Assembly: GCA_036874045.1 (NCBI GenBank)
Contig: CM072344.1
Span: 12,558,501-12,622,500, forward strand
Direction of reading: 5' to 3'
Length of the DNA: 64,000 nt
From: Cymodocea nodosa
Taxonomy: Eukaryota; Streptophyta; Magnoliopsida; Alismatales; Cymodoceaceae
Below, piece after piece: positions 8,095 to 56,975 of this stretch. Position numbers and translations under genes: made by a program. Below the pieces are notes generated by a model, which saw only the letters and a list, made by a program, of their open reading frames with translations, did no database searches and was not told where the DNA came from. Numbering within the stretch: the stretch's first letter is position 1; every line of letters begins with the position of its first letter.

Positions 8095-8165
8095 AAGCTT
8101 AAATGAGTACTATCACTAGTTATGTTAATTTTTGTCTCTGCTAAATTTTTGTTTTTATTTTACAG

Positions 8166-9021
8166 AATCGACAAATGGAATTAATGAAATTACCGTTGGA
8201 TGCACTAAGGGAAGTATTAAGTAACTTGTCAACTAAAGATTTGTGCAGGCTGTGTTGTGTATCAAAGGAAATTAAAGACTATATTGAAGAAAAATATTTT
8301 CAGGGACTACAAGCTGCAAAAATGATTAAGATTAGAGATGGATTCATATGGAGGTCATTTAATCGTAGTTCAAATACCCATGAATATCTGGCTATGGAAG
8401 AAACTACTGGAATTCCACCCAATATATTAGAAGGAATGAGTCATATTATGGGAATAGATGAAAGATTAATCTTATAAAACACATGTCATACTTGATGGAT
8501 ATATCTATTTAGTCACGGAGATATCATTAGCATATGGATCTGATTTATACATAGTGAGCATAGACAGTTATGATGATTATATAGAAATTTTACCTGTACC
8601 GAGTGAAATAGCTAAACCACCATCTGTAGAATTTAATGAAATTCAAATAGGAATGTGGTATAATGAAGAAGATGATCCTACTTTATGTCTGATAAGATGG
8701 TGGGATGAACTGATGAAATTTCAAATATGGATTATGGAAGACATGAATGAATGGAAGTGGGAAGAGGAGTATATCAAAATAGAGGTAGAAATAAAAACTG
8801 CTACATTACCCTGGCACCAAAAAGGATCCCTTTCTGCATTACATATCATTAATGTTAATACACTCGTATTTGGAATTTATAATATATTGCATGTTTACAA
8901 ATTAAAAAGGAACAAGAACTGCATTAAAATAGAATTAATAGCAAGAAGAACTATGCCTAAAAAGTTTGCTTGGACTAATACATTTATTCCATTTGTTTCT
9001 ACTTTTCAATCATGTTCTTAA
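8166..9021 (+). pseudogene. F-box/FBA gene copy 1, retrotransposon-associated, broken
   Basis: From ATG 8175 the product starts with an F-box (LPLDALREVLSNLSTKDLCR, then CCVSKEI), followed from about 8,480 by a C-terminal FBA-like region (CLIRWWDE, KFQIWIMEDMNEWKWEEEY, FIPFVSTFQSC). F-box proteins couple substrates to SCF ubiquitin ligases through Skp1; FBA-type repeats bind the substrate (family knowledge). It is homologous to 25,643-26,809 and its tail to 17,086-17,304. Directly upstream is an acceptor-like pyrimidine tract with AG at 8164-8165, so this copy begins as an exon. It sits between Copia copy 1 and the minus-strand Athila-like fossil. It is shorter than the 25.6-kb copy and not one open frame. 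Confidence 0.72.
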
Positions 9022-12890: not shown

Positions 12891-13835
12891 CTAGAATTTA
12901 CTTTTCTCTTTTTCTCTTACAGTTTTCGAATAAGCTTCATTTCTAAATTCTTCTAATTCAATTAGTTGCATTTTCCTATTTTTAGCAGCTTGATTTAAAT
13001 TAGTATTCAGAGTTTTTAATGCCCAATAAGCTTTATGTTCTATTTCAGCAGTTAAATGACAATTTTTTCCATATACTAGCCTAAAAGGTGACATACCTAA
13101 GCTCGTTTTATAAGCAGTTCTATAAGCCCAAAGTGCATCTATCAATCTATTAGCCCAATCTGTTCTAATAGGATTTAATACTTTTTCCAAGATTAATTTA
13201 ATTTGTTTGTTTGCACTTTCTACTTGTCCACTTGTTTGCGGATGATATGATGTTGCAATTTTGTGGTTTACTCCATATTTCTTCATTAAGGCTTCAAAAC
13301 TTCTATTACAGAAATGATTTCCTCTATCATTGATAATAGCTTTAGGTATTCCAAATCTAGCAAATATATTTGTTCTTATAAATTGTATCACTTTGTTATC
13401 ATTAGTTTTTGTAGGAATAGCTTCTATCCATTTTGATACATAATCCACCCCCAACAATATGTAATTAAATTGATTAAACATAGGAAATTGACCCATAAAA
13501 TCTATTCCCCACACATCAAAGATTTCAACCTCAATAATAGGATTAAGAGTCATCATATTCCTCTTTGATATTCTTCCTATTTGTTGATATCTTAAACAAC
13601 TTAAGCAATATTTATAAGCATCTTTGAATAGTGTTGGCCAATAAAACTCACATTGTAGAATTTTTGCAGCAGTTTTCCCTGAACCAAAATGTCCTCCACA
13701 AGCTTGGTCATGACAGAAAGACAATATGCTCGAATATTCAGTTTCTGGAACACACCTCCTTAAAACCAGATTAGGACATTTCTTAAATAAGTAAGGGTCT
13801 TCCCAATAGTAATATTTTACTCTTGAGAAAAACAA
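12891..13835 (-). pseudogene. Athila B integrase
   Basis: Zinc-binding N-terminus ([20 protein letters not shown] ... CLSCLRYQQ), catalytic core ([26 protein letters not shown]-equivalent [14 protein letters not shown]) and the conserved [22 protein letters not shown]. It inserts element cDNA into the genome. Closely matches 22,950-24,107. Part of a broken fossil. Confidence 0.88.
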
Positions 13836-14069
13836 TTTCTTATCCTGTCTATTCCAATCCTTAGGTGTTAAACCAGTAACTAAGTAATTAACTATGTCTG
13901 CATATCAAGGCATTGTGTTGATGGTCATTAATTGTTCATCAGGAAAATTATCCTTAATTTCAATATTTGATTTTTCTATTTGTAATCTTGATAAATGATC
14001 TGCTACTACATTCTCACAACCTTTTTTATCTTTAATTTCTAGATCAAATTTTTGCAATAATAATATTCA

Positions 14070-14990
14070 TCAGATCAATTTAGGTTTAGTTTCTTTTTTC
14101 TTTATTAGCTGTTTTAGAGCTAAATGATCCATGTATACTATTACTTTAGCTCCAATCACATATGATCTAAACTTTTCTAAAGCAAACACAATAGCTAATA
14201 ATTCTTTTTCAGTAGTTGTGTAATTAACTTGAGCATCATTTAAGGTTTTGCTTGCATAATGAATCACTCTAGGAGATTTTTCTATCTTCTGTCCTAACAC
14301 TGCTCCTACAGCAAAATCAGAAGCATCGCACATTAATTCAAATGGATGGTTCCAATTAGGTGCTTGAATTATAGGAGTTGAAATTAAGCTAGTCTTAAGT
14401 CTGAAAAATGATTCCTTGCAATTTTTATCAAAGTTAAATGGAACATCTTTTAATAGATTAGTTAAAGGCCTAGCTATCTTGCTAAAGTCTTTAATAAATC
14501 TTCTATAAAAACCAGCATGTCCTAGAAATGATCTAATATCTTTTACTGATTTAGGTTCTAGTAGATTAGAAATTACTTCTATTTTAGCTTTATCTACTTC
14601 CAACCCTTTTTTAGAAACAACATGCCCTAAGACTATTCCTTGTTTAACCATGAAGTGACATTTTTCCCAATTTAAAACCAAATTTTTTTCCACATAGCGT
14701 TTTAATATTTGGTCTAAATTGCTTAAACACACTTCATATGAGTTGCCATATACAGTAAAATCATCCATAAATATTTCTAAAAAATCTTCAGTCATTCCAA
14801 TAAATATGCCCTGCACACACCTTTGAAAGGTAACTAGCGCATTGCATAATCCGAATGGCATTCTTTTAAAAGCATAAGTTCCATTAGGATAGGTGAAAGT
14901 TGTTTTCTCTTGATCCTCTAATGCTACTGGAATTTGATTATACCCTAAATGCTTGTCTAGGAAACAAAAATATTATTGCCCTGTTAATCT
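14070..14990 (-). pseudogene. Athila B reverse transcriptase (C part) and RNase H
   Basis: MPFGLCNALVTFQRC, the catalytic IFMDDFTVYG, then HAGFYRRFIKDFSKIARPL and the RNase H start (FELMCDASDFAVGAVLGQ, THYTTTEKELLA-type motif VNYTTTEKELLAIVFALEKF). Typical Ty3/Gypsy RT order. Part of a broken fossil. Confidence 0.88.
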
Positions 14991-16090
14991 TTCCAACATT
15001 TGATCTATAAAAGGTAAGGGAAAATGATCTTTCCTAGTCATAGCATTCAGCTTTCTATAGTCTATACATACTCTCCAACCTGATTGAATTCTAGTAGGTA
15101 TCAAGTCTTGACTTTCATTCCTAATAACTGTTAATGTTGATTTCTTGGGAACTACATGGATTGGACTAACCCACGAGCTATCAGAAATCGGATAAATTAT
15201 ATCATTATCTAACCATTTAATTATTTCCTTCCTGACTACTTCTTTAAGGTTTGGATTTAATCTCCTCTCAGGAATTCTAACAGGTTTAGCATTCTCTTTT
15301 AAATATATGTGGTGACAGCATAAAGTTGAACTTAACCCTTTTATATCAGTCATAGTCCATCATATTGCTTCTTTATAACTTTTTACTACATCTTTTAATT
15401 TAGCTATTTGATCCTCTTTTAAATCTGAAGCAATAATGATTGGACAGGTCCGTTTGTCTTCCAGAAATATATAGGTTAATTCAGGAGGTAAATGTTTTAA
15501 TTCTAAATGCTGCCCATTAGAAGCTAGAGCTCTTAATTGAACATCATCATTTTTTAAATTAATTTCTTCTTGATCTCCTTCTATATTTATGCTTTCACTT
15601 TCTTCTAAAGTTTCAGAATTGATTTGCCTATTTAATTCTTCTTGAATCACATCATCTAACATATCTCCTTCATCCTCTAAAAAGTCTATGGTATGTAAGG
15701 ACATTTCTAACTCCTCAAACCTTTCTGGTTTGAAAATATATAATTGAGTATCCTCATTACCATATGCTAACTTCATTACTCCAGTTTTACAATTTATAAC
15801 AGCCCCTGATGTTGCTAAAAATGGCCTTCCCAAAATTAAAGATGTATCACTATTTTTATGCTTAATTTGTTGGGAATCCAAAATTACAATATCAATAGGA
15901 TATATAAAATTCTTGATTTTAATTAAGACATCCTCTATTTTTCCTCTAGGGTATCTTATACTTCTATCAGCTAATTGAATAACCGTACTAGTAGGAGTTA
16001 AGCCTTCTAATCCTAAGGATGCAAATATATCACTTGGCATAACATTTATACCTGCACCTAAGTCTATTAAGGTTCTTTCTAGAATGGTAT
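14973..16090 (-). pseudogene. Athila B protease and RT N-terminal part
   Basis: 16,040-15,360: protease with DLGAGINVMP-type active site near its start, LADRSIRYPRGKIEDVLIK, SLILGRPFLATSGAVINC, then an acidic linker (EDEGDMLDDVIQEELNRQ). 15,353-14,973: RT N-terminus (LNPNLKEVVRKEIIKWLDND, SWVSPIHVVPKK, WRVCIDYRKLNAMTRKDHFP). The sequence identifies the Athila lineage. Confidence 0.85.
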
Positions 16091-16289
16091 TTCCTATGGT
16101 GCATGATATAACAGGGATTCCAAGATCAGATAACTTTTTAAGAATTTGTCACAGAAATAGGGAACTACTTTGCTCAACTAAAAAGACATTTCTAAGAACT
16201 TTTGGCTCTCTTTTCTTAGTACACCAATCCTTCAGAAATTTAGCACAAGGTGGCATATTCTGCAATAGATCTAACAAAGGAATGTTAAC

Positions 16290-17045
16290 TTATACTTTTT
16301 CCAAAATTTCTCTGATTTTTTCTTGTTTTTCAGGAATTGTTTGTTGTAATCTTTCAAGATAGGGTGCTAAAGATTTTGATTTCAAAGACTCTTTTTCTTT
16401 TAGTTGATTTGTTTGATCATTTTTAGCTTCAATTGCAGATTCAGATTGTTCTTTAGTGATTTCTAGATTTTCAACTATTACATTTTCATTATCATTTTGA
16501 TTTTTACTCTTGTCCACCTTCATATCATTTTCATTTTGAGTTCTTGGTGGTATATCAGTTCCAGATCTTAATGTTACACATACATCTTCCAGATTTTCGT
16601 TACTTTCATGATGTTTTTATATATCATTTTCGTGATTATGATCTTCAATTGTTTTTAGTTTTAAAGTGCATTCTTTAAATTCTCTTACATTAGTATTTTC
16701 TGTTTGTTTTATATTTTGCAAGTTGTGTAGGTTTATAACATTATAATTTTCATTGTCCTATTGCAAAACTTGTATTTTCATTGCATTTTTGTCTAGTGCT
16801 TTTAATTTTGTTTCCAGATCATCTAATTTCATTGCATTCAATTTTTGATCAATTTTCTTTATAGCTTTTTCAGTTTCATAAATTATATCCTGTTTAGGTT
16901 CTGAATATGCCTCCTTATAGTTTAACTGGTTGACTTCTTGTTGTTGACACAGAAAGTACTCTAGTTTGTCTAGATTTTGCTCTATACTATGCTCCAGTCT
17001 ATCATAGCTATCCCAAACTTTAGTGTCTCTCATCATATTACACAT
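16290..17045 (-). pseudogene. Athila B gag C-terminal region
   Basis: Coiled-coil-like, charged gag tail: MCNMMRDTKVWDSYDRLEHS at 17,045, KAIKKIDQKLNAMKLDDLET, and KSKSLAPYLERLQQTIPEK near 16,370. Matches 19,690-20,440 on the plus strand. Confidence 0.75.
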
Positions 17046-17085
17046 TCTATACTGACCATCAGTTGGGTAAACTATAGGATTTTCA

Positions 17086-18208
17086 TTGTCCTATTGGAAC
17101 CAAAAAGGATCCCTTTCTGCATTACATATCATTAATGGTAATACACTCGTATTTGGAATTTATAATATATTGCATGTTTACAAATTAAGAAGGAACAAGA
17201 ACTGCATTAAAACAGAATTAATAGCAAGAAGAACTATGCCTAAAAAGTTTGCTTGGACTGATACATTTATTCCATTTGTTTCTACTTTTCAATCATGTTC
17301 TTAAGTTGTGATTTTGTGTGTTTAACGTTGTGTATTCTGCAATTATTTTTAGAAAAAAAAAAGGAATTTTGAAGTTTTCATGTTCATTTTATATAAAAAA
17401 AAAACAAAATATCAATCCAGTTTGTTGGTATCTGTTTTGGGAAACCAACTGGCTTGCTTGTGAGCCACCAAAGGCATAGGAGCCTGGGTTCCACACAAGA
17501 CACTGATTTATTAATATCTGTTAAATGTTATTTTGTTTTATATTCTGTGTTTATCTGGGAATGAAAAGTTCTTCAGAATCAAAAATCGAAATATGCAGAA
17601 GGAGATACAAATGGAACAAGGTATGTAACCAATTACTTATCTTGAATTTTAAATCAAACAAAACTTTATTCATGCCTGCTACACTTACTATACTTATTGT
17701 CAAATCTTTTACATTGAGGACAATGCAAAATGTAGGTATGGGGGAAGGTAATTAAAGTAACAACCATGTAAGTTTGTTAATTAAAGGAATTAAAATGGTA
17801 CTGCAAGGTTTTGAGGAAATTGAAAATTTTTATGAACTTGCTGTAACTATTCGATAATTGAGATTGTAAAATTTTTATAAACTGCTTGAATGTTATATTT
17901 AGAAGGCTATAGAAGATGCTATAGAATTTATTATTTATGCAAATCTAGATATAGTATCTTATGTTTTTTCTGAATTTCATGAGTTTAACAGTTTCACGAT
18001 TTTAAAATAAAATCAGAATACTTAATGCTTAATCAGAAAATTATCTGAAGTCCTGAAAGAGCGGACATGTGAATTCTAGATTAAATGAAAGACATATGAT
18101 TAAAGATACATCTAATTTGACTGATTGAACTTGTAGAATGATTTATGTGTAAATCTTATTAAACTATAGAAAAAGTATGAGCTTATTGTTATGGATTCAT
18201 ATTTTCAG
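17086..18208 (+). pseudogene. F-box gene 3' end plus downstream sequence, copy 3
   Basis: 17,086-17,304 encodes the last about 70 codons of the F-box/FBA protein (NQKGSLSALHIINGNTLVFG ... FIPFVSTFQSCS), nearly identical to 26,595-26,809. The following 900 bp match 26,810-27,720, including the GTATGGGGGAAGGTA purine tract at 17,735. It abuts the minus-strand gag of element B at 17,085. Confidence 0.75.
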
Positions 18209-19346
18209 AAACATAAAAGAAAAGAAGAAAAAAAGAAGAAAGGGTGATCGATGGATGGACAGTGTGTGTAGAGGAGGATCAGCGTCGTAATTCTCTGAAG
18301 TACCACACCAACCATCATCACCACCATAATCACTGACCATCGGAGGTCTGTGAGGATACTTACCTGATGTCGAGTCGATTCCGAGCCAAACACAGTGCCT
18401 AACAACCACTGTGAGGAGTGATCGTGTCGCGGGTAGGGAAGACATTTTCACCAAGCGCTGACTCATATTTCAAGAGATCGTAAAGCTTTTAGCCTTGGCT
18501 TCGAGTTGATGCCTATATGCTGAAGAGGAGATCATCTTGCAATTCTGGACTTGCGATTCTATAGGGAGAGGAGACAGAATTGTAAGTGGTTTAATTTTAA
18601 GTAGTGTAATCGCGTTGCAAGTAGTGTCGGAAGTATTTACTGTCAAGTGAGATTACTTTACATTTCACCTTTCGCCCATTTCCATTCACATCAAAACAAA
18701 AATACCAAAAACAATTTATCTTTGTTTGTATGTTGTATTGTTTGTGTTGTATCGTGATTAATGTTGTCTTTATCAGTTTTATGATTGTTTTATGTTAATT
18801 TTAATTTTACAGTTTACTGAAATTGGTTTGTACAAAAAAACTTAAAGATTTTAATGGTTACTGTTTGAATCATCTGAATGTTAGTATTGCTTAATAATAA
18901 ATCCAATTTTAACTAGCATTAAAAAGCTTAATTGATGTTATTTACAATCTGTGGAATCGCCCAATAGTTGGTCGAATTCATTTGTAAATAGCAGTATTAT
19001 AAAGAAGAGACAGACTCGTGGAGTTAACTTAAGTCCACGAGGATAGTCCGTTGAGTTAACTATAACTCAACGGAGTGCTTATTGAATATAAATTTGAATT
19101 GTTCACAATCAAACATTTCTTAAATTCGTCAGCAATTCCCTGTGGGATCGACCTGTACTTGCACACTGATACAATAGACATTATACACTTGCAGTTAAAG
19201 TACAAATTGGAATTAATATCTAAATTGTATTAAAGTTTGTTTGTTTACTTCTAAAAGAAAGAATAGTCATAAAGATAAATTAACTAAGTAAAAATAGAAG
19301 TAACAAATCAAAGTTTTTCTAGTGTAGTGTTGGGAAAACCCAAACA
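18209..19346 (+). repeat. Athila-type LTR-derived segment preceding element A
   Basis: Matches 29,427-30,629 and 47,493-48,690. Starts near the ATAAAAGAAAAGAAG promoter-like tract and ends GTTGGGAAAACCCAAACA, directly followed by the element leader. Confidence 0.82.
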
Positions 19347-19526: not shown

Positions 19527-20560
19527 TTGAAACCTTTAATTAGTATATGTGAATTCTGTAATTCTGAAGGACATGACATTTCCGATTGTTTGAAATTGAG
19601 ACATTTACAGATTGTTAGATCCCATGAACAACAAATGAATTATCCTCAATATAATAGAGCCGAGTACGAGAATCCTATAGTTTACCCAACTGATGGTCAG
19701 TATAGAATGTGTAATATGATGATAGACATTGAAGTTTAGGATAGCTATGACAAACTGGAGCATAGTATAGAGTAAAATCTGGACAAATCGGAATACTTTG
19801 TGTGTCAACAACAAGAAGTAAACCAGTTAAACTATAAGGAGGGATATTCAGAACCTAAACATGATATAATTTAGGAAACTGAAAAAGCCATAAAGAAAAT
19901 TGATCAAAAATTGAATGCAATGAAATTAGATGATCTGGAAACAAAATTAAAAGCATTAGACAAAAATGCAATGAAAATACAAGTTTTGCAACAAGACAAT
20001 GAAAATTATAATGTTATAAACCTGCATAACTTGTAAAATATAAAACAAACAGTAAACACTAATGTAAGAGAATTTAAAGAATGCATTTTAAAACTAAAAA
20101 CAATTGAAGATCATAATCACGAAAATGATATACAAAAACATCATGAAATTAACAAAAATCTGGAAGATGTATGTGTAACATTAAGATCTGGAACTGATAT
20201 ACCACCAAGAACTCAAAATGAAAATGATATGAAGGTGGACAAGAATAAAAATCAAAATGATAATGAAAATGTAATAGCTGAAAATCTAGAAATCACTGAA
20301 GAACAATTTGAATCTGCAATTGAAGCTAAAAATGATCAAACAAATCAACTGAAAGAAAAAGAGTCTTTGAAATCAAAATCTTTAGCACCCTATCCTGAAA
20401 GATTACAACAAATAATTCCTGAAAAACAAGAAAAAATTAGAGAAATTTTTGAAAAATTACAAGTTAACATTCCTTTGTTAGATCTATTGCAGAATATGCC
20501 ACCTTGTGCTAAATTTCTGAAGGATTGGTATACTAAGAAAAGAGAGCGAAAAGTTCTTAG
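19527..20560 (+). pseudogene. Athila A gag, zinc-knuckle and C-terminal region
   Basis: CCHC zinc knuckle near 19,551 (CEFCNSEGHDISDC), followed by YPTDGQYRMCNMM, a lysine-rich coiled-coil-like stretch and the KSLAPYPERLQQ block that precedes protease in Athila polyproteins. Confidence 0.78.
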
Positions 20561-21047
20561 AAAGGTCTTTTTAGCTGAGCAAAGTAGTTCCCTATTTCTG
20601 CCACAAATTCCTAAAAAGTTATCTGATCCTGGAATCCCTGTTATATCATGCACCATAGGAAATACCATTCTAGAAAGAACCTTAATAGACTTAGGTGCAG
20701 GTATAAATGTTATGCCAAGTGATATATTTGCATCCTTAGGATTAGAAGGCTTAACTCCTATTAGTACAGTTATTCAATTAGTTGATAGAAGTATAAGATA
20801 CCCTAGAGGAAAAATAGAGGATGTCTTAATTAAAATCAAGAATTTTATATATCCTATTGATATTGTAATTTTGGATTTCCAACAAATTAAGCATAAAAAT
20901 AGTGATACATCTTTAATTTTGGGAAGGCCATTTTTAGCAACATCAGGGGCTATTATAAATTGTAAAACTGGAGTAATGAAGTTAGCATATGGTAATGAGG
21001 ATACTCAATTATATATTTTCAAACCAGAAAGGTTTGAGGAGTTATAA
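20561..21047 (+). pseudogene. Athila A aspartic protease
   Basis: LIDLGAGINVMPSDIFASLG, RSIRYPRGKIEDVLIK and SLILGRPFLATSGAIINC are the diagnostic Athila protease blocks. It cuts the element polyprotein. Part of the long open stretch 20,229-21,047. Confidence 0.82.
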
Positions 21048-22800
21048 ATGTCCTTACATACCATAGACTTTTTAGAGGATGAAGGAGATATGTTAGATGA
21101 TGTGATTCAAGAAGAATTAAATAGGCAAATCAATTTTGAAATTTTAGAAGAAAGTGAAAGCATAAATATAGAAGGAGATCAGGAAGAAATTAATTTAAAA
21201 AATGATGATGTTCAATTAGGAGCTCTAGTTTCTGATGGGCAGCATATAGAATTAAAACCTTTACCTCTTGAATTAACCTATATATTTCTGGAAGATAAAC
21301 GGATCTGTCTAATCATTATTGCTTCAGATTTAAAAGAGGATCAAATAGCTAAATTAAAAGATGTAGTAAAAAGTTATAAAGAAGCAATAGGATGGACTAT
21401 GACTGATATAAAAGGGTTACGTTCAACTTTATGCTGTCACCACATATATTTAGAAGAGAATGCTAAACCTGTTAGAATTCCTGAGAGGAGTTTAAATCCA
21501 AACCTTAAAGAAGTAGTCAGGAAGGAAATAGTTAAATGGTTAGATAATGATATAATTTATCCGATTTCTGATAGGTTGTGGGTTAGTCCAATCCATGTAG
21601 TTCCCAAGAAATCAGCATTAACAGTTATTAGGTATGAAAGTCAAGACTTGATACCTACTAGAATTCAATTAGGTTGGAGAGTATGTATAGACTATAGAAA
21701 GCTGAATACTGTGACTAGGAAATATCATTTTCCCTTACCTTTTATAGATCAAATGCTGGAAAGATTAATAGGGTAAGAATATTTTTGTTTCCTAGACGGG
21801 TATTCAGGGTATAATCAAATTCCAATAGCATTAGAGGATCAAGAGAAAGAAATTTTCACCTGTCTTAATGGAACTTATGCTTTTAAAAGAATGCCATTCA
21901 GATTATGCAATGCGCCAGCTACCTTTCAAAGGTGTGTGCAGGGCATATTTACTGGAATGACTGAAGAATTTTTAGAAATATTTATGGATGATTTTACTGT
22001 ATATGGTAACTCATATGAAGTGTGTTTAAGTAATTTAGACCAAATATTAAAACGCTGTGGAAAAAAATCTGGTTTTAAATTGGGAAAAATGTCACTTCAT
22101 GGTTCAACAAGGAATAGTCTTAGGGTATGTTGTTTCTAAAAAAGGGTTGGAAGTAGATAAAGCTAAAATAGAAGTAATTTCTAATCTACCAGAACCTAAA
22201 TCAGTAAAAGATATTAGATCATTTCTAGGACATGCTGGTTTTTATAGAAGTTTTATTAAAGACTTTAGCAAGATAGCTAGACCTTTAACTAATCTATTAA
22301 AAGATGTTCCATTTAACTTTGATAAAAATTGCAAGGAAGCATTTTTCAGACTTAAGACTAGCTTAATTTCAACTCCTATAATTCAAGCACCTAATTGGAA
22401 CCATCCATTTGAATTAATGTGCGATACTTCTGATTTTGCTGTAGGAGTAGTGTTAGGACAGAAGATAGAAAAATCTCCTAGAGTGATTCATTATGCAAGC
22501 AAAACCTTAAATGATGCTCAAGTTAATTACACAACTACTCAAAAAGAATTATTAGTTATTGTGTTTGCTTTAGAAAAGTTTAGATCATATTTGATTGGAG
22601 CTAAAGTAATAGTATACACGGATCATTCAGTTCTAAAACATCTAATAAAGAAAAAGAAACTAAACCTAGATTGATCCGATGGATATTATTATTGCAAGAA
22701 TTTGATCTAGAAATTAAAGATAAAAAAGGTTGTGAGAATGTAGTAGCAGATCATTTATCAAGATTACAAATAGAAAAATCAAATATTGAAATTAAGGATA
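21048..22800 (+). pseudogene. Athila A reverse transcriptase and RNase H
   Basis: Acidic linker, then RT blocks NPNLKEVVRKEIVKWLDND, WVSPIHVVPKK, WRVCIDYRKLNTVTRK, MPFRLCNAPATFQRC and the catalytic IFMDDFTVYG near 21,985. RNase H starts with FELMCDTSDFAVGVVLGQK near 22,410 and VNYTTTQKELLVIVFALEKF. Fossil; not a single frame. Confidence 0.87.
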
Positions 22801-24107
22801 ATTTTCCTGATGAACAATTAATGACCATCAACACAATGCCTTGGTATGTAGACATAGTTAATTACTTAGTTACTGGTTTAACACCTAAGGATTGGAATAG
22901 ACAGGATAAGAAATTGTTTTTCTCAAGAGTAAAATATTACTATTGAGAAGACCCTTACTTATTTAAGAAATGTCCTGATCTGGTTTTAAGGAGGTGTGTT
23001 CTAGAAACTGAATATTCGAGCATATTGTATTTCTGTCATGACCAAGCTTGTGGAGGACATTTTGGTTCAGGGAGAACTGCTGCAAAAATTCTACAATGTG
23101 GGTTTTATTGGCCAACACTATTCAAAGATGCCCATAAATATTTATTAAATTGTTTAATATATCAACAAATAGGAAGAATATCAAAGAGGAATATGATGCC
23201 CATTAATCCTATTGTTGGGGTTGAAATCTTTGATGTGTGGGGAATAGATTTTATTGGTCTATTTCCTATGTCTAATCAATTTAACTACATATTGTTGGGG
23301 GTGGATTATGTATCTAAATGGATAGAAGCTATTCCTACAAAAACTAATGATAACAAAGTGGTAATACAATTTATAAGAACAAATATATTTTCCAGATTTT
23401 GAATACCTAAAGCTATTATCAGTGATAGAGGAACTCATTTCTGTAATAGAAGTTTTGAAGCCTTAATGAAGAAATATGGAGTAAACCACAAAATTGCAAC
23501 ATCATATGATTTGCAAACAAGCGGACAAGTAGAAAGTGCAAACAAACAAATTAAATTAATCTTGGAAAAAGTAGTAAATCCTACTAGAACAAATTGGGCT
23601 AATAGATTGATAGATGCACTTTGGGCTTATAGAACTGCTTATAAAACGAGCTTAGGTATGTCACCTTTTAGGCTAGTATATGGAAAAAGTTGTCATTTAC
23701 CTGCTGAAATAGAACATAAAGCTTATTGGGCATTAAAAACTCTGAACACTAATTTAAATCAAGCTGCTGAAAATAGGAAAATGCAACTAATTGAATTAGA
23801 AGAATTTAGAAATGAAGCTTATTCGAAGACTGTAAGAGAAAAAGAGAAAATTAAATTTTGGCATGTTAGAAAAATTATTCCTGAAAACTTTGAAATAGGA
23901 CAAGATGTATATCTTTATATGGCTAAACTCCATAACCATCCAGGAAAATTAAGATCTAGATGGGCAGGACATTACATAGTTCGAAATGTTTATCCTTATG
24001 GAACTGTTGAAATTGAAAATCCTAGAAATCAGAATATATTTAAAGTAAATGGACAAATACTTAAACCTATTCTGAAAACACCAAAAAGCTCCTTTGGAAT
24101 TATATAA
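22801..24107 (+). pseudogene. Athila A integrase
   Basis: Zinc-binding [20 protein letters not shown], core [40 protein letters not shown], and a C-terminal SH3-like region ([20 protein letters not shown]). No chromodomain is seen, as expected for Athila. Confidence 0.87.
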
Positions 24108-25382: not shown

Positions 25383-25661
25383 ATGAAACTTCATCGGTTT
25401 AGCGGTTACCTAAATTTGAAATTAGTAGTGGTACACGTACCCATAAAAACAGGAACCACGATGCACGTTGCAAGACACATTCTTGCAACAAGATTTATTC
25501 ACTTTATGGATGCGCAGTATATATATGAAACAGAATGTTATTTACGAGTTACTAGCACTTTTAAAAGAAAGGAAAAAGCGTTGGAGGAACTGGATGGAGA
25601 AGCAGCTGATTCAACCTTCATCCGACAACAAATATTTATAGAATGGAAAGCTTCAGACTGA
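25383..25661 (+). other. Open stretch upstream of the F-box gene (likely captured first exon)
   Basis: 92-codon stretch of no recognised family (RHILATRFIHFMDAQYIYET, basic KRKEKALEEL). It overlaps the F-box start in another frame, so it is more likely 5' UTR than coding. The minus-strand copy at 9,632-9,920 ends at a donor-like GTATGT exactly where this copy joins the F-box exon. Confidence 0.4.
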
Positions 25662-26809
25662 ATCGACAAATGGAATTAATGCAATTACCGTGGGATGCAC
25701 TAAGGGAAATACTAAGTAACTTGTTAGCTAAAGATCTATGCAGGCTGTGTTGTGTATCAAAGGAAATTAAAGATTGTATTGAAGAAAAATATTTTCAAAG
25801 ACTACAAGCGTCAAAAATGACTAAGATTAGAGATGGATTCATATGGAGGTCATTTAATCGTAGTTCAAATACCCATGAATATCTAGCTATGGAAGAAACT
25901 ACTGGAATTCCACCCAATGCATTAGAAGGAATGAGTCATATTATGGGGATAGATGAAGGATTAATCATATACAAGACGAGACCAAGGTATGCAAGTTTAT
26001 TATTACCGGATATTTTGATAAGAAATCTTATAACAGGAGAAGAATGGAATATAGGAAGACCTAATAGATTTGAAGCACCAACTGTAAATTGTGTGTCAGC
26101 TTTAATATTTTCTGATAAAAATTCTACAATTCCTAAAAAATTATATTATTGGAGACCTACAGGAAATTGGGGTGAAGATTTATGCTTAAGTGTGTATAAT
26201 TTTCTGAACAGATCTTGGAATGAAAACATTATGATATATCTAGGACAGAAATCTGTAATTAACCAAACACATGTCATACTTGATGGATATATCTATTTAG
26301 TCATGGAGATATCATTAGCATATGGATCTAATTTATACATAGTGAGTATAGATAGTTATGATGATTAGATAGAAATTTTACCTGTACCGAGTGAAATAGC
26401 TAAACCACCATCTATAGAATTTAATGAAATTCAAATAGGAATGTGGTATAATGAAGAAGATGATCCTACTTTATGTCTGATAAGATGGTGGGATGAACGG
26501 ATGAAATTTCAAATATGGATTATGGAAGACATGAATGAATGGAAATGGGAAGAGAAGTATATTGAAATAGATGTAGAAATAGAAACTGCTACATTATCCT
26601 GGAACCAAAAAGGATCCCTTTCTGCATTACATATCATTAATGGTAATACACTCGTATTTGGAATTTATAATATATTGCATGTTTACAAATTAAAAAGGAC
26701 CAAAAACTACATTAAAACAGAATTAATAGCAAGAAGAACTATGCCTAAAAAGTTTGCTTGGACTGATACATTTATTCCATTTGTTTCTACTTTTCAATCA
26801 TGTTCTTAA
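25643..26809 (+). pseudogene. F-box/FBA gene captured in an Athila-like element, copy 2
   Basis: The most complete of three copies. N-terminal F-box (LPWDALREILSNLLAKDLCR, LCCVSKEIKDCIEEKYFQRL), then beta-propeller-like FBA blocks: LITGEEWNIGRPNRF, KLYYWRPTGNWGEDLCLSVY, NFLNRSWNE, VILDGYIYLV, and after about 26,440 CLIRWWDERMKFQIWIMEDM and FIPFVSTFQSC. F-box proteins recruit targets to SCF ubiquitin ligase; this one would use the C-terminal region for substrate. It lies in the same orientation as pol, after integrase and before the polypurine tract and 3' LTR, so it is inside the element. The upstream exon-exon junction at about 25,660 is seamless, suggesting origin from a spliced RNA. Mostly open, with about one break. 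Confidence 0.75.
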
Positions 26810-28570: not shown

Positions 28571-30629
28571 TGTTTAGAATGAAAAAGTGCATATTATTAA
28601 CGGTTAAATGATGGTTAATTGCATAATATTTAGCTTATCATATAAGAATTAAACCATTATGTTATAATTGCACTGTTATATGCTTTAATTGAAGAATCTG
28701 CTTAATTTTGGGGAATTAATGTTAATTTAGTACATTTATGAACTGTCGTTAAGTTGCAGGCTGTGAAATTCTTAAGTATCCGAATTTTCTAATATTTCGG
28801 ACAGTTATGTTTAACATACCGAACAAATTCGAACAGTTATGTATAACAGACCGAATATGTAACAGATAGTTATGTTTAAATTGCCGAACAGTTATGTTTT
28901 GAGAGAATATTTTATTATTTCTTGAAGTACGCGTGTCGAAACCAGAATGAATGACTTAAGTGAACTTTTAGTGAGTTATTTATAATTATCCGAAATTACA
29001 GCTGAGAATCGGAGAGTTATCCCTATAACTCTTCGAAATCTCTTTTTATTTATAAAATAGCTGAGGACACGTGTCATGTTCTAGGAAATTGACTTAAGTG
29101 GATTTTTGGTGAGTTAGTTGTAACTATCCGAAATGCATCTAAGCATCGGATAGTTAAGTTTATAAGTATTCGAAATGCACCTGAGCATCGGATAGTTAAA
29201 TTTATGCACGTGTTTTATAGTTAAATCAACGAAGAAAGTCTGTTGAGTTATCTATAACTCCACGAACTATATATTTTCTAATATGCCACTGTAGCGGTTG
29301 CAGAAACAGAACAGTTGGAAGGAAAAACCACGTTTGCACATATCGCGCAAGAGAAGTAAGCATCATCGTTGATCTGAAGGAAGGAAATCCAACCGATCAT
29401 TCAAGCAAAAGCAATTACTACTGAAGAAATATAAAAGAAAAGAAGAAAAAAGAAGAAAGGGTGATCGATGTGTGATCAATGGATGGACAGTGTGTGTAGA
29501 GGAGGATCAACGTCGCAATTCTCTGAAGTACCACACCAACCATCATCACCACCATCATCACCACTATAATCACCAACCATCGGAGGTCTGTGGGGATACT
29601 TGCCGGATGTCGGGTCGATTCCGAGCCAAACACAGTGCCTGACAACCACTGTGAGGAGTGATCGCGTTGCGGGAAGGGAATACATTTTCACCAAGCGCCG
29701 ACTCATATTTTAGGAGATCGTAAAGCTTTTAGCCTTGGCTTCAGGTTGATACCTATATGCTGAAGAGGAGATCATCTTGCAATTCTGGACTTGCGATTCT
29801 ATAGGGAGAGGAGACAGAATTGTAAGTGGTTTAATTTTCAATGGTGTAATTACGTTTCAAGTAGTGTCGGAAGTATTTACTGTCAAGTGAGATTACTTTA
29901 CATTTCACCTTTCGCCCATTTCCATGTTCACATCAAAACAAAAATACCAAAAACAATTTATCTTTGTTTGTATGTTGTATTTGAGTGTTGTATTGTTTGT
30001 GTTGTATCATGATTATTGTTGTCTGTATCAGTTTTATGATTGTTTTATGTTAGTTTTAATTTTACAGTTTACTAAAATTGGTTCGTACAAAAAAACTTAA
30101 AGATTTTAATGGTTACTGTTTGAATCATCTGAATGTTAGTATTGCTTAATGATAAATCCAATGTTAACTAGCATTAAAAAGTTTAATTGATGTTATTTAC
30201 AATCTGTGGAATCGCCCAATGGTTGGCCGAATTCCTCTGTAAATAGCAATATTATAAAGAAGAGACAAGCTCGTGGAGTTAACTTAAGTCCATGAGGATA
30301 GTCCGTTGAGTTAGCCTTAACAAACTTAGTCCGTTGAGTTAACTGTAATTCAACGGAGTGCTTATTGAATATAAATTTGAATTGTTCACAATCAAACATT
30401 TCTTAAATTTGTTAGCAATTCCCTGTGAGATCGATTTGTACTTACACACTGATACAATAGACACTGTGTACTTGTAGTTAAAGTATAAATTAGAATTAAT
30501 ATCTAAATTGTATTAAAGGTTGTTTGTTTACTTCTAAAAGAAAGAATAGTCATAAAAATAAATTAACTAAGTAAAAATATAAGTAATAAATCCAAGTTTT
30601 TCTAGTGTAGTGTTGGGAAAACATAAATA
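28571..30629 (+). repeat. 3' LTR of Athila element A
   Basis: About 2.06 kb. Begins TGTTTAGAATGAAAAAGTGC like the solo LTR at 46,837 and ends GTGTTGGGAAAACATAAATA. Contains CGGATAGTTA motifs in its first third, TATAAAAG at 29,430, and the GTTGAGTTA hairpins near its end (30,270-30,360). Confidence 0.87.
29430..29437 (+). promoter_or_regulatory. Likely LTR TATA box
   Basis: TATAAAAG in the middle of the LTR, conserved in the solo LTR at 47,496-47,503 and in both tandem copies in the old LTR (38,100-38,320). Probable start of element transcription shortly downstream. Confidence 0.5.
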
Positions 30630-33146: not shown

Positions 33147-33369
33147 AACTACAAACCTCTTCTATCATCTGTTCATAAACATTTGACGATCCAGGAGGAA
33201 CTTCAATGTGACAAAAACCAGCTACCAATGGGAGACTGCCAAGGAAAGAGGACTCTCGCTTGTAAACCTCGCCTAGATTCAATTCCTTCCTAAATTCAGA
33301 CACAATACGCGATTCCATATTTTCAACTCCGTCTCTGAGTGGAGGAAGCGTATAATATGGAATTTTATC
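33147..33369 (-). pseudogene. NSN1 late exon, minus arm of inverted pair 2, open
   Basis: Minus-strand exon of about 74 codons: KIPYYTLPPLRDGVENMESR, VSEFRKELNLGEVYKRESSF, LGSLPLVAGFCHIEVPPG, YEQMIEE, then donor-like GTTTGT. This is the region missing from the gene at 1-2.2 kb. The upstream intron matches 1,695-1,737, but the base before the exon reads CCG instead of CAG, so the acceptor is lost. It is an isolated fragment. Confidence 0.8.
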
Positions 33370-33410
33370 CGGAAGGGAAATCAACCTTATCGGATAGAAA
33401 ATAAATGCAG

Positions 33411-33761
33411 TACTGTTTATTTTTTCTCTCTTTTCTTATCTTCTTTTTCTTTCTTTTTTCCCTTCTCCTCCTCCTCCGGCCGGTCTCTCCCGTCTCTACC
33501 TCCGCCGCATTTCCGACCACGGGAAGGTTGGATCCCATCCGACCTCTGGGAGCCGAATGGTCCATCATCCCGCTCACACAAGCAACCAGTAATCTTCTTG
33601 CTCTTACTCTCTAGAACAAAAGAAAAAGACCACATCCATGATCATCTTCATTCTCATGAAATGATCATCCATGATCGAGGTAATTTTTCTTTTTCGAGCC
33701 CGCACATGAAATGAGATATTTCTCTTGCAGAGGGAATCGAAGCCCACCCTTCTCCTTGCCT
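33411..33761. repeat. Shuffled modules preceding unit 1 of the NSN1 array
   Basis: Pyrimidine-rich tract and CTCCTCCTCCTCCGGCC block (33,411-33,600), also at 36,010-36,310 and 56,220-56,670, followed by the TCTTGCTCTTACTCTCTAG and TTCTCTTGCAGAGGGAATCG blocks that elsewhere follow the NSN1 inverted pair. No convincing gene. Confidence 0.6.
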
Positions 33762-33886: not shown

Positions 33887-36589
33887 ATATTGGGTTCAGG
33901 GGTTATACGATAGATAGTTCGTGTTGTGCAGTACTACATAGATAAAGTTCCTTAGCAATATAAGAGTTCCATGAACGAAAGTTGTAAAAGCAATTCAGTG
34001 GAATGCATGGATGTAAAATAACTTTTCAGCTTGTGATTCAAAGGATTTCTTCTATACGAAGAATGTATTGAAACTACATAATCCCAACTTTAAATAACGA
34101 TGGGATTTCGATCTTGTTTCCTCTGCAAAACTCTTTATCGGCTTTAGGCGCTGCTCATGTCGTTGTTGTTGTTGCTGCCATCTGAAAAAGGATCGATTTT
34201 TTTGGGTTAGAATGTCGTCTACCGTTTGGACGGACCTTTTTACTTATCTATTTTCAAACTCAGATTTCTGAGTATGCATGGCTTTTCTTCATGGATCCAG
34301 TCTTAATCCACCACATGGCATGATGTCGTCGTCGGACGGGGTTGGGCCATCTAACGTGATAACAGTGATGATGCCAACGTTAAAAAAAGAAACATGTAGA
34401 AGGATATATATATATCCATCACAATATTAATATTAAGTTACGTAATTGCGCTTCAAATTTTTCATGTTTTGGAGTTTTTTTTTGCACTCTTCAAAATTCG
34501 TATTTTTTATTTTTCTTTGGTATAATATAAAAACTTATATCATCTCATTCCTTAGAAAGAAAAGTAGGAAATATTATTATGCAACTCGATATTGCAATAG
34601 AAATGAAAGGCCAATACTTGGGAATCTGTCCTCAGAATTTACATGGAATGACACATATCAAAAAGTTTATAATAGTATCCATACTTGGATTATTATCCGA
34701 TTGTATTTTTTGTTTATAAAATTTCTACACCTCGTCGTAAGTTCTACCTTCCTCTATCTTCAATAATTTCCTTAGGCTACGTTCTCATTTTGTGATGCCT
34801 GGACGAGGTGAGCTACTGTTCCATACTTAGATGGTTGAAGCAAACCATGGGATGAGACCACCTTCAAGTCGTCGACGTCGCCTCCTTACGTTCTTTTTAC
34901 GTCCTTATGTTTATTGATTTAATAACATTAACTTTTCCAATTTTTCTCGTTAAATTGTTCTGCAATAAAACATAAAATAAAATTTTCTTGCAAAACTAAC
35001 TTCTATAAAATTTGTTAGATAACCTGAAACAATAATTTATAAAGTTATAACAATAAAATTTAATAAGTAATATAACATTATATTTGTAAAATATACTTAA
35101 ATATAATGAACTTATTCAATTACGTTTGGGCTTATTAGGCTTATTGTCTTTTTATTATAATCAAAAGGAATTGAAACTTCTCTTGAAAAATGAGCCAATC
35201 AATATTCTATGTTTTACCATCTACATGGGAGTTTGCCTTCGTTGAGCCAATTAATACTCTATGTTTTAGATCATAAGGAAATCACATATCTTATTATTGT
35301 CATTATTTACATGGGTTTTTCGTACTTTAAAATTTTATTTATTTTATTATGTATTTATTTTTTCTTCTTGTGAATTACTTCTATTGTGGATTTATTTATT
35401 ATCATGAAAAATCTTACGAATAGTTGTCATATAGAAGGAAAGAAAGGAATCTAACGTAAGAATATCCATGCCTCAATAAATAATTAATATTACATTTTAG
35501 ATATAAGCTCATGTAGCGGTAAAAAATTGACTAACTTTAACTCATGTGATAACTCATAAAGAATAGTCTTTTATATGCAAATATTTTAGATAGTTTAGTC
35601 TGTCCAGAACTAATTGGTATTTTTTAAACATTTGGATATATATGTATTTTTTAATATCTAAATATATATTTCAAATAGTTTAAGCTCTTCTTTATGAGCA
35701 TGATGTATTTTAGTTATTTGGATATTATTCAAATAAAGACTATTCTATGCGTATTTGATTTATAAACATATATGTTTGATTTTATAAATAAGATATTCAT
35801 CAAATTTGATATTATACATATATGCATATGTCAAATATACATGTATTTCGTTTCATGTATATGTATACTTGATTTCAATTTTATACACACATGAATTTGT
35901 TCAATTGTTTACATGTGCATGAAATATTTCTGGAACATATATTTATGCATCATCGAACATGCATGTATATGCATTTGTCAAGATTCCTTTTTTTTTTTTT
36001 AATTAGCAGTGCTACAAGCCTCCCTTATAATTTTTCGCTTGTATTTCATTTTTTGTATTTTTTCTTCTTCTTTGTCGTGTTTTCTTTCCGTTTCTCTTTT
36101 CAGTTTGCTCTTCTTTTTATTTTTATTGATTTTAAAAAAAAATTTCTCTCTTTTCCTGTGTTTTTTCTTTTTTCCCTTCTTCTCCTCCTCCGGCCCGTCT
36201 CTCCCGTCTCTACCTCCGCCGCACTTCCGACCACGTGAACGTTGGACCCCATCCGACCTCCGTAAGCCGAATGCTCCATCATCCTGCTCACACAAGTAAC
36301 CATTAGTGCGGTCCAAGCGGAGCTCTTTGGCAGACGCGGCGGGTGTCTGTGCTACCACCATGGACAAGCGGACCAGAGCGCCGTCACGGATGAATGGTGT
36401 CGTCGATTTCGAATAGGCACTCTCGCAGCCGGGCATGGACCGCGTGAACCAACCCATCGGTCTCTCCGTGTGTTGCGTTTCCCAACTAACATCATCTATA
36501 AGTTTCCCCTGCATCACCTGTCCCCAGACTGCCGGTTGCCGAACTCCTTGTGTAGTTCCATCCGCCGGCTATAAAAGAACACTCGGCTC

Positions 36590-43435: not shown

Positions 43436-44755
43436 GTTGTGCACTGTAGAACTTAATGGAAGTAAAGATTGTGAAACTAGGGTTTTACTAGGGTAGAAAC
43501 ATGAAAGGTTGTTAGTAAAACATTTATAACTCTTCGAGTTTATAAACGGATAAACGGATTCAATCATTGAAATCATAAATATAAGATCCGTTACTGATAA
43601 ATAACTCAAGTGCTTACAAGAACTGTACGAGTTTTACAACCGACAAAAGTAGAATACTTAGCATAACTATTCATGAAAAAAAATATAACTTCGGGCTAAG
43701 TGAAAAAGTGAGAAAACTCAAATACTTATGATAACTATTCGAGTTTTGTGAGCAGTAAAGCACATAACTATACGACAAACGAGAATAATTATTGTTAGAG
43801 ATTAAGTCTTTCAAAAAAATATAATAATATTAAGTTAACTATTCGAGTTTCTCGAATGGATAGGTGTGAAAGTCGAAGAGTTAAACATAATTGTTCGAGT
43901 TTCAACTGAGACATAATAAAGTAATGAAATTCAACACGTGCATAATTCTAACTTAAGGTATTCAGAGATTTTCGGATACTTATAAACCTAACTATCCGAT
44001 GCTTAGTTGCATTTCGGAGAGTTACCAAATAACTTACCGAACATTCACTTTTTTTTTAAAAATGTTTTTTTTTTTTTTTCAAAGGTCCTCCTTAGACACT
44101 CAAACAGCCTAGTGAACACCAGGAATATCTTTAAAGGTGATAGAAGGTGAACCTTCATGGACACTCAAACAGCCTGGTATACACCAGAAGTATCCATGGA
44201 GGTGATAACATATGAGTCTCAATGGACACTCAAACGGCCTGGTATACATTAGGAGTATCCAAGGAGACGAAAGCTTGTAGGGGGCCTTGCTAGGCCCACT
44301 TTGGTAAGTGGTGGACACACCTACAGCTTGCCAATGCTTGAGCAAAGCCAACACAACTGTCCATAGGCACTACACGAGAACTTCCCAAGTGATCACCCAT
44401 CCTGGTTCTGCTCCCACCCAAACACAGTTAACTCCAGAGTTCTTATAGGAGTCAGTGCTTGGTAGTAGGTGTAAATGCACCTTACCGAACATTCACTTAA
44501 GATATGCATTTAGGCTTCAACACGTGTACTTTAGGAAATAATAAAATATTCTAGTGATCGTTTAAAACATAATTGTGCGATATACAATATAGTCTTCCGA
44601 AATCACAGAAAATTCGAATACTTAACAATTAAAAAGCTTGTACTTTATCGACAATTCAGAAATGTACTGAATTAATGTTAATTTCCTAAAATTATGCAGA
44701 TTCTTTCATGAAAACATATAATAATTCATAAGAGTTGAATTATTATATGAGAAAT
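43436..44755 (-). repeat. Athila-LTR-like sequence upstream of the Copia accessory ORFs
   Basis: On the minus strand, GAAGAATCTGC(A/T)TAATTTT, AATTAACATTAATTCAGTAC and repeated CGGATAGTTA(G) motifs parallel the first third of the Athila LTR (28,690-29,220). A GTAGGGGGAGC purine tract lies just outside at about 44,760. It could be a solo-LTR fragment or an exchanged block. Interrupted by the SINE at 44,051-44,480. Confidence 0.55.
44051..44480 (-). mobile_element. SINE with 5S rRNA-derived head (SINE3-like)
   Basis: Minus strand. Positions 44,480 to about 44,363 align over their whole length with plant 5S rRNA (GAACTCTGGAGTTAACTGTG; box C GGATGGGTGATC at 44,402-44,391; CTTGGGAAGTTCTCGTGT). 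The body has a GGGCC/GGCCC hairpin (about 44,281-44,296) and three tandem 65-bp units, each with a GGACACTCAAAC-type block on the plus strand (44,094, 44,159, 44,224). It ends in an A-rich tail (plus-strand T run 44,051-44,079). The 18-bp direct repeat CTTACCGAACATTCACTT flanks it at 44,033-44,050 and 44,481-44,498, as expected for LINE-driven insertion. The 5S head would supply an internal pol III promoter. Non-coding. Confidence 0.85.
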
Positions 44756-46836: not shown

Positions 46837-48690
46837 TGTTTAGAATGAAAAAGTGCATATTATTAACAGTTAAATGATGGTTAATTGAATAATATTTAGC
46901 TTATCATATGAGAATTAAGCCATTATGTTATAATTGCACTGTTATATGCTTTAATTGAAGAATCTGCTTAATTTTGGGGAATTAATATTAATTTAGTACA
47001 TTTATGAACTGTCGGTAAATTGCAGGCTGTGAAATTCTTATGTATCCGAAAATGCATCTGAGCATCGGATAGTTATACCTGTAACTCTCCGGAATGTTAT
47101 TTTATGTTTAAACTGCTGCTGACATGTGTTGAGAGCTGATAGATTTACTTACGTTATAACTCGTTAAGTTAGTATAACTACACACGTTGAGTTACATGAA
47201 AATACACTAAGACAACACGTTAGGTTAGTGTTATAAACTTAAGTTGTTATTTTTGCAAGTGTTTTATAGTTAAATCAACGAAGGAAGTCCGTTGAGTTAT
47301 CTATAACTCCACGGACTATATATTTTCTAATATGCCACTGTATCGGTTGCAGGAACAGACAATTGAAAGGAAAAACCACGTTTGCACGCATCATGCAGGA
47401 ATTCAATCATGTAGGGAGAAAGAAATCATCGTTGTTGATCTGAAGGAAGGAAATCCAACTGACCATTCAAGCAGAAGCAGTTACCACTGAAGAAATATAA
47501 AAGAAAAGAAGAAAAAAAAAGAAGTGTGTGATCGATGGACGGCCAATGTATATAGAGGAGGAGCATCGAGCTTTCTGCAAACAGTATCGACGATTCTCCG
47601 AAGTATCACACCAACCATCGTATCACCACCATAATCACCAATCATCGGAGGTCTGTGAGGATACTTGCCTGATGTCGGGTCGATTCCGAGCCAAACACAG
47701 TGCCTGACAACCACTGTGAGGAGTGATTGCATCGCGGGAAGGGAAGACATTTTCACCAAGCGCCGACTCATATTTCAGGAGATTGTAAAGCTTTTAGCCT
47801 TGGCTTCGGGTTGATGCCTGTATGCTGAAGAGGAGATCATCTTGCAATTCTAGACTCGCGATTCTATAGGGAGAGGAGACAGAATTGTAAGTGGTTCAAT
47901 TTTCAATGGTGTAATCGCGTTGCAAGTAGTGTCGGAAGTATTTACTGTCAAGTGAAATTACTTTACATTTCACCTTTCGCTCATCACATCAAAACAAAAA
48001 TACCAAAAACAATTTATCTTTGTTTGTATGTTGTATTTGAGTATTGTATTGTTAGTGTTGTATTGTGATTAATGTTATCTGTATCAATTTTATGATTGTT
48101 TTATGTTAGTTTTAATTTTACAGTTTACTGAAATTGGTTCGTACAAAACAACTTAAAGATTTTAATGGTTACTGTTTGAATCATCTGAATGTTAGTATTG
48201 CATAATGATAAATCCAATGTTAACTAGCATTAAAAAGCTTAATTGATGTTATTTACAATCTGTGGAATCGCCCAATGGTTGGCCGAATTCCTCTGTAATT
48301 AGCAGTATTATAAAGAAGAGATAGGCTCGTGGAGTTAACTTAAGTCCACGAGGATAGTCCGTTGAGTTATCCATAACTCAACGAACTTAGTCCGTTGAGT
48401 TACAGTTAACTCAACGGAGTGCTTATTGAATATAAATTTGAATTGTTCACAATCAAACATTTCTTAAGTTCGTCAGCAATTCCCTATGGGATCGACCTGT
48501 ACTTGCACACTGATACAATAGACACTGTGCACTTGCAGTTAAAGTACGAATTGGAATTAATATCTAAATTGTATTAAAGGTTGTTTGTTTACTTCTAAAA
48601 GAAAGAATAGGCATAAAGATAAATTAACTAAGTAAAAATAGAAGTAACAAATCCAAGTTTTTCTAGTGTAGTGCTGGGAAAACACGAACA
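46837..48690 (+). repeat. Athila-type solo LTR inserted in Copia RT
   Basis: 1,854 bp from TGTTTAGAATGAAAAAGTGC to AAAACACGAACA. ATATC is duplicated at 46,832-46,836 and 48,691-48,695, and Copia RT continues across. Closely similar to 28,571-30,629, so about the same age as element A and younger than Copia copy 2. Contains TATAAAAG at 47,496 and a block (47,195-47,262) shared with the Copia-type solo LTR at 4,297-5,958. Confidence 0.93.
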
Positions 48691-55068: not shown

Positions 55069-56669
55069 CTTTTTATTTGTTGTGTTCATTGATGTAATCA
55101 ACATTAACTTTTCCAATTTTTCTCGTTAAATTGTTCTTGCAATAAAAATAAAACAAAATTTTCTTGCAAAACTAACTTTAATAAAATTTGTTAGATAATC
55201 TAAAACAATAATTCATAAAGTTATAATAAGAAAATTTAATAAGTAATATAACATTATATTCTTAAAGTTTGCTTAAATATAATGAACTTATTCAATGATG
55301 TTTAATCTTATTGTCTTTTTATTATAATTAAAAGGAATTGAAACTTCTCTTGAAAAATGAGCCAATAAGTACTCTATGTTTTATCATCTACATGGGAGTT
55401 TGCCTTCGTTGAGCCAATTAATACTTTATGTTTTAGATCATAAAGAAATCACATATCTCATTATTGTCATTATTTACATGTGTTTTTCATACTTTAAAAT
55501 TTTATTTATTTTATTATGTTTTTTTTCTTCTTCTTGTGAATTACTTCTATTTTGAATTTATTTATTATCATGAAAAATCTTAGGAATAGTTGTTATATAG
55601 AAGAAAATAAAGGAATCTAACACAAGAATATGCATGCCTGCATCAATAAATGATTAATATTACATTTTAGATATAAGCTCATGTAGTGGTAGAAAATTGA
55701 CTAACTTTAACTCATGTCGTAGCTCGTAAAGAATAGTCTTTTATATGCAAATATTTTAGATAGTTTAGTCTCATGTCTAGAAGTAATTGATATTTTTAAA
55801 CATTTGGATATATATGTATTTTTTAATATCTAAATATATATTTCAAATAGTTTAAGCTCTTGATGTATTTTAGTTGTTTGGATATTATCCAAATAAAGAA
55901 TATCCTATGCGTGTATGTATTTATTAATTTGACTTTATATATGCGTTTGCATTTGATTTATAAACATATATGTTTGATTTTATAAATAAGATATTCATCA
56001 AATTTGATATTATACATATATGCATATGTCAAATATACATGTATTTGGTTTCATGTATATGTATACTTGATTTCAATTTTATACACACATGAATTTGTTC
56101 AATTGTATACATGTGCTTGAAATATTTCTGGAACATATATTTATGCATCATCGAACATGCATGTATATGCATTTGTCAAGATTGCTATAGATTTTTTTAA
56201 TTAGCAGTGCTACAAACCTTCCTTATAATTTTTCACTTCTATTTCATTTTTTGTGTTTCTTCTTTTCCCTGCATTTTTTTCTCTTGGTTTACTAATTTTC
56301 CTATATTTTCATGTATTTTTCCTTTCTTTTCTTATCTTTCTCTCATTTTTCAAAATTTTCTTGTTGATTTATTCTCTTCCTTTTCTTTTTATTCTACTTT
56401 TTTTCTTTCCTTATTTTCCCTTTTCTTTCTTCTTTGTCGTTTTTTCTTTTCGTTTCTCTTTTCCGTTTACTCTTCTTCTTATTTTTATTGATTTTTAAAA
56501 AAATTTTCTCTCTTTTCCTGTCTTTTTTCTTTTTTTCCTTCTTCTTCTCCTCCTCCGGCCCGTCTCTCCCGTCTCTACTTCCGCTGCAATTCCGAGCACC
56601 TGAACGTTGGATCCCATCCGACCTCCGGGATCCGAATGGTCCATCATTCCGCCCACACAAGTAACCATT

Positions 56670-56975
56670 AGTGCGGTCCAAGCGGAGCTCTTTGGCAGAC
56701 GCGGCGGGTGCCTGTGCTACCACCATGGAGAAGCGGAGCAGAGCGCCGTCACGGATGAATGGTGTTGTCGATTTCGAATAGGCACTCTCGCACCCGGGTA
56801 TCGACCGCGTGAACCAACCCATCAGTCTCTCCGTGTGTTGCGTTTCCCAACTAACATCATCTATAAGTTTCCCCTGCATCACCTGTCACAAAACTGCCGG
56901 TTGCCGAACTCCTTGTGTTGTTCCATCCGCCGGCTATAAAAGAACACTCGGCTCGTCGTTGGAAGAAGCACAGAG
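56670..56975 (+). promoter_or_regulatory. Promoter-like GC-rich module, unit 2 copy
   Basis: Nearly identical to 36,306-36,605 and partly to 31,865-32,060. Ends with CTATAAAAG at 56,934-56,942, close before NSN1-like sequence. Confidence 0.4.

Follow-up and report, generated by a model that had tools for sequence, protein, structure and literature searches.

A retroposed element with a 5S rRNA-derived head in Cymodocea nodosa: a probable plant SINE

Introduction

Is the insertion described here, from contig CM072344.1 of Cymodocea nodosa, a plant SINE whose head derives from 5S rRNA? Plant SINEs are mostly tRNA-headed, as are Au, p-SINE and ZmSINE, and 5S-headed SINEs (SINE3) are best known from animals, where they are short, non-coding, LINE-dependent and accompanied by target duplications. 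Among plant retroelements, 5S is carried by the TRIM Cassandra, which makes target duplications of 5 bp. A first-pass annotation of the locus had described a minus-strand 5S-like head of about 118 bp with a box C, three tandem 65-bp units, an A-rich tail and a perfect 18-bp target duplication, and had proposed a plant 5S-headed SINE distinct from Cassandra. We followed up this proposal in the window, i.e. the whole 64-kb stretch of DNA that was analysed. Papers are cited by their PMC numbers.

Results

Insertion and target site

The two copies of the target duplication (Table 1) are identical at 18/18 positions and lie at a spacing of 448 nt. When the flanks were joined with one duplication copy and aligned to a related but diverged host repeat elsewhere in the window (29043-28904, minus strand), 109 of 142 positions agreed through the join, with 87 aligned bases on one side of it and 54 on the other. 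A second stretch of this repeat, 29214-29093, agrees with the left flank at 101 of 123 positions and reaches just 3 bases past the join. Because the insert is absent from the related repeat at 28904-29043, the 18 bp represent a target duplication. Among 1500 random 430-nt cores, 1495 were without a repeat of at least 8 nt, four had one of 8-9 nt, and the single 18-nt case was the element itself, sampled by chance. Further repeats of at least 18 nt occur in the window at other spacings (starts 16746, 24354, 38036, 38044 and 59940); the duplication is convincing because it is placed exactly at the ends of the element and because a copy of the repeat exists without the insert. The host repeat, which is AT-rich and carries TAACTATCCGAT-like units, is seen in three places, 28635-29214, 43933-44753 and 46942-47050.

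At its inner end the 5' duplication shares one or two bases with 5S positions +1/+2. Between the 5' end of the element and the 5S start there are 0-2 nt, as would be the case for a transcript made by pol III. On the element's sense strand the pre-insertion site reads ATCTT/AAGTGAATG, i.e. CTT/AAGT, and resembles TT/AAAA, the nick site of L1-type endonucleases.

Table 1 Features of the element and its insert-free counterpart (positions within the window)
Feature	Position	Strand	Basis
Whole inserted element, 430 nt	44051..44480	- (sense)	Joined flanks align through the junction to an insert-free related repeat
Target-site duplication, 3' copy relative to the element (plus strand: CTTACCGAACATTCACTT)	44033..44050	+	18/18 identical, repeat search
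Target-site duplication at the element's 5' end	44481..44498	+	Repeat search
5S rRNA-derived head, full-length	44364..44482	-	Rfam RF00001; outermost 2 bases are part of the duplication
Box A-like AGTTAACTGTGT	44422..44433	-	Motif RGTTAAGYRHGY as given in PMC7215508, 1 mismatch
Box C-like AGGATGGGTGATC	44391..44403	-	Motif RRRATRGGTRACY as given in PMC7215508, 1 mismatch
Unique middle, 97 nt, imperfect inverted repeat	44267..44363	-	Fold and self-comparison
65-nt unit 1	44202..44266	-	
65-nt unit 2	44137..44201	-	
Partial unit 3 of 51 nt, the 3'-most on the sense strand	44086..44136	-	
A-rich tail, with internal TTTTT as the only T run of at least 4 in the element's sense strand	44051..44079	-	
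Related host repeat without insert (empty site), two tandem-like stretches	28904..29214	-	Alignment

The 5S-derived head

In a search over 541 bases the head matched the Rfam 5S_rRNA model along positions 1-120 of 120 with 39.9 bits (gathering score 38; E 7.9e-07), and RF00001 was the sole Rfam match at the gathering threshold in the window. Since the score is near the cut-off despite the full-length match, the head is diverged and not partial. Aligned without gaps to a provisional Arabidopsis-type 5S rRNA reference, it is identical at 82 of 120 positions with 38 substitutions, which is far from the near-invariance of 5S genes; two 20-nt stretches from the start of this reference occur in 11 published papers and a 37-nt stretch in none. 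The alignment score of 107 compares with a mean of -16.6 and a maximum of 13.5 for 1000 dinucleotide shuffles. At the 39 sites that differ between provisional plant and vertebrate 5S references, the head has the plant base at 24, the vertebrate base at 1 and neither at 14, and judged by these references it looks to be of plant descent. Five of the six CpG sites of the reference 5S are now TG or CA, as would be expected of methylated repeat DNA. The RNA fold of the head has an energy of -42.6 kcal/mol (z -2.69).

Box A and box C of the head are spaced by exactly 18 nt, with 2 mismatches in total to the joint pattern, and the box C-like stretch contains the canonical C-box AGGATGGGTG (C-box as in PMC10853983). 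With up to 3 mismatches the joint pattern occurs once in the window, in the head, where 0.02 chance matches are expected; 2 of 100 shuffles matched. The internal element agrees with the reference 5S at 4 of 6 positions. Identity to the reference 5S is 37/48 in the promoter region and 45/72 in the rest of the head, with no significant excess (Fisher p 0.11). Judging from 120 nt without an indel, the spacing of the promoter was apparently preserved in the source lineage. By sequence, the pol III-type internal promoter that is typical of SINEs is present in the form of boxes A and C with their spacing. Both the 5S-like head and its box C are as the first-pass annotation had described them.

Middle, units and tail

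Downstream of the head and the unique middle, the units recur at 65-nt spacing (TRF score 197). In the register of the repeat search two of them share 74% and 62% identity with the reference copy; in a 65/65/51-nt register the pairwise identities are 52/65, 34/51 and 38/51. The three tandem units of the earlier description were recovered as three copies at the expected spacing, the third being only partial. The RNA fold of the array (-69.5 kcal/mol, z -5.48) was equalled by none of 200 shuffles and is probably due to inverted repeats within the units. For 44051-44362, which holds the middle and the units, all Rfam scores fell far short of the gathering thresholds. Three matches in the body (up to 16.3 bits against 100) were taken as chance, as was a mir-2060 match in the 541-base search (16.5 bits against a gathering score of 54.5).

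The GC content of the insert exceeds that of the DNA around it: the 47% of the body is reached by 25 of 1272 segments of the window. As is usual for SINEs the element is non-coding, with no stop-to-stop ORF of at least 90 codons overlapping it; its longest stop-free stretch has 86 codons and its longest from an ATG 46, both in sense frame 1.

The A-rich tail, also as claimed, consists of 15 A, CA, 5 T and 7 A; the next 2 A are already part of the duplication. Within it, the five T at 44058-44062 (minus strand) form a possible pol III stop that is followed by more A. In some SINEs terminated transcripts gain an A tail, and the T5 followed by A in this single copy recalls such transcripts. The 401-nt body holds no TTTT in the sense strand before the tail. 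This absence is significant only in comparison with the AT-rich window, where 103 of 2544 segments lack TTTT, and not when the composition of the body itself is taken into account (of 2000 shuffles, 271 were also without TTTT). The lack of TTTT before the tail is compatible with pol III transcription and does not prove it.

Relative age of head and insertion

The duplications are 18/18 identical and the head is 32% diverged; thus most of the divergence of the head predates the insertion. In a rough neutral model, which assumes equal decay of head and duplications and uses the provisional 5S reference for comparison, the chance of 18/18 identity at head-level decay is about 4e-6. The perfect duplication beside so diverged a head rules out that the insertion is old and has decayed where it stands. 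We also rejected a fresh 5S retropseudogene, as the head had diverged before insertion, a pattern that a single diverged source gene would also give. Since the divergence of the head is older than the insertion, the element came from a long-lived lineage derived from 5S.

The same observations bear on the rival reading that DNA-level rearrangement moved a 5S rRNA gene, stray or decayed, or a fragment of one. Such a gene could explain why the 5S homology is full-length and why the head still folds. However, it accounts neither for the 18-bp duplication, the A tail and the related repeat without the insert, nor for identical duplications around a strongly diverged head, nor for the raised GC content of the insert, and we consider it very improbable.

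Comparison with Cassandra

Cassandra, as a complete TRIM or as a solo LTR, would likewise bring a 5S-derived promoter, and the element resembles Cassandra in having borrowed a plant 5S promoter with box A and box C at 18-nt spacing. In contrast to Cassandra with its 5-bp duplication, the element has 18 bp and an A tail, and no LTR pair was found: no long repeat flanks the element (43900-44700) or pairs with it in the window. Instead of the two 5S-bearing LTRs of Cassandra, the 64 kb contain one 5S match at the gathering threshold. The primer site TGGTATCAGAGC, with up to 2 mismatches, has three matches in the window (370, 3746 and 46706), none of them in or beside the element. Cassandra is an LTR element with the primer site inside its 5' LTR (PMC7215508) and the 5S about mid-LTR (PMC10853983), and neither LTR nor primer site nor mid-LTR 5S was found in the element, where the 5S sits at the extreme 5' edge. 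Copies paired as LTRs with a primer site are among the observations that the first-pass annotation had named as speaking against its own reading; no such pairing was found for the element in the window, and the distinction that it drew from Cassandra holds. Although Cassandra occurs widely among vascular plants (PMC7215508), we rejected it on account of the single 5S, its edge position and the lack of a primer site near the element, and give this reading practically no credence.

Discussion

LINE-type, target-primed retroposition of an element whose pol III-type head derives from 5S is well supported from the sequence by the 5' end at the 5S start, the A-rich tail, the 18-bp duplication and the host repeat without the insert. 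The duplication, the insert-free related repeat and the A tail are what retroposition as a SINE would leave. We consider it quite probable that the element is a non-autonomous SINE-type retroposon whose pol III head descends from a plant 5S. In the cycle that we propose, TFIIIA and pol III would recognise box A, the internal element and box C of the head, and transcription would start at the first 5S base. The transcript would pass through the middle and the units, in which there is no TTTT stop, and end in the A-rich tail. A LINE protein would then nick the target, prime on the A tail and copy the RNA, giving rise to the 18-bp duplication. Since the tail consists of A and the nick falls at TT/AA, the helper LINE would most likely be of the L1 type. 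Pfam found no LINE among 10 of the 66 ORFs of the window, and the reverse transcriptase near the element is of the RVT_2 type; no partner LINE and no shared 3' tail came to light.

The window contains one copy of the element; no second copy was found in it. Of the first-pass proposal of a plant 5S-headed SINE, the retroposed 5S-headed element stands, and the label of a SINE family rests on other copies. A single-copy chimeric RNA gene, made of a diverged 5S with downstream repeats and retroposed once by a LINE without amplification, would leave an identical A tail and duplication, and both the one copy in the window and the want of a meaningful Rfam score for middle and units agree with it. 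It requires, however, a long-lived transcribed 5S-like gene whose spacing stayed ungapped through 38 substitutions, which would arise naturally from a SINE master lineage, and we therefore regard such a one-off retrocopy as unlikely, though to be taken seriously. Neither the element nor its unit or middle patterns gave a match in viral, genome-contig, plasmid or phage collections, which are non-plant and uninformative on copy number. These searches comprised exact unit patterns in viral and genome contigs, exact middle patterns in viral contigs and blastn of the element against plasmids and phages; a plant 5S control pattern also had no match in the same viral and genome contigs.

Read as a SINE-type retroposon, the element shares its 5S-derived head, the hallmark of SINE3, with the animal members of that class, such as zebrafish SINE3, AmnSINE1, springhare Ped-1 and lepidopteran HaSE3 (PMC3747384, PMC10886601). 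Unlike them, it has a head of plant 5S type (by the provisional references) and a body made of 65-nt units; its tail is A-rich, whereas the partners listed for animal 5S SINEs in PMC3747384 are CR1/RSg-1 or BovB. Like Au, p-SINE and ZmSINE it is a short plant retroposon, but its head is 5S and not tRNA. Among these plant elements, ZmSINE3 is given in PMC3747384 with L1 as its partner and a tail of the (A)n kind. A 5S-related head outside animals is also described for SINEs of Aspergillus fumigatus (PMC5063351); these are fungal, and the likeness is one of description and not of compared sequences.

The searched SINE literature, which included few subscription papers and lay outside Repbase and SINEBase, knows 5S-derived SINEs from animals and Aspergillus and names no plant 5S-headed SINE in its titles or the openings of its abstracts. 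No description of one was seen in passages of PMC10886601, PMC10853983, PMC11490119, PMC3747384, PMC7215508, PMC4717578, PMC7852121, PMC3183009 and PMC12619909. In favour of novelty, the example that PMC10853983 chooses for the gain of a promoter in this way is "SINEs in animals", and in PMC4717578 Cassandra was the only TRIM family in which 5S was found. Against it, PMC3095306 mentions 5S-homologous sequences among SINE3 "including plants", with reference to the Cassandra paper of 2008, and the plant tool paper PMC8825457 states in general terms that some SINE heads derive from 5S rRNA. A plant 5S-headed SINE family may have been described before, despite the negative result in the literature.

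If the reading is true, L1-type retroposition of 5S-derived RNA would take place in plants too. It would also provide a concrete candidate for the kind of donor required by a speculated origin of Cassandra, namely the insertion of a SINE3 into an LTR (PMC10886601), an idea that would become testable by comparison of 5S heads. A later proposal, which is preferred by PMC10853983, is that an LTR element captured the 5S near a 5S array. We hold it to be an evenly balanced matter whether plants possess a multi-copy SINE3 family whose 5S head is full-length, such that lineages of this kind could have been the donors of Cassandra's 5S promoter. SINE finders that start from tRNA boxes might miss 5S-headed elements: the structural search of AnnoSINE uses tRNA boxes A and B, and its classification step also scans 5S (PMC8825457).

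Other features of the window

Several further features were seen by eye. Two similar polyprotein regions, presumably gypsy-type, lie in opposite orientation and are broken by stops (12891-17090, minus strand; 20037-24107, plus strand). Two short minus-strand frames (18197-18469 and 47481-47774) have nearly the same protein start and are perhaps a dispersed repeat; the frame at 47481-47774 had no match in Pfam. On the plus strand there are two similar F-box-type frames, each over two ORFs (8145-9021 and 25610-26809), the first part of the latter with a Pfam F-box match. Similar translations are also found at 36003-36574, 56368-56939 and, in related form, 33277-33714, in GC-richer parts of the window.
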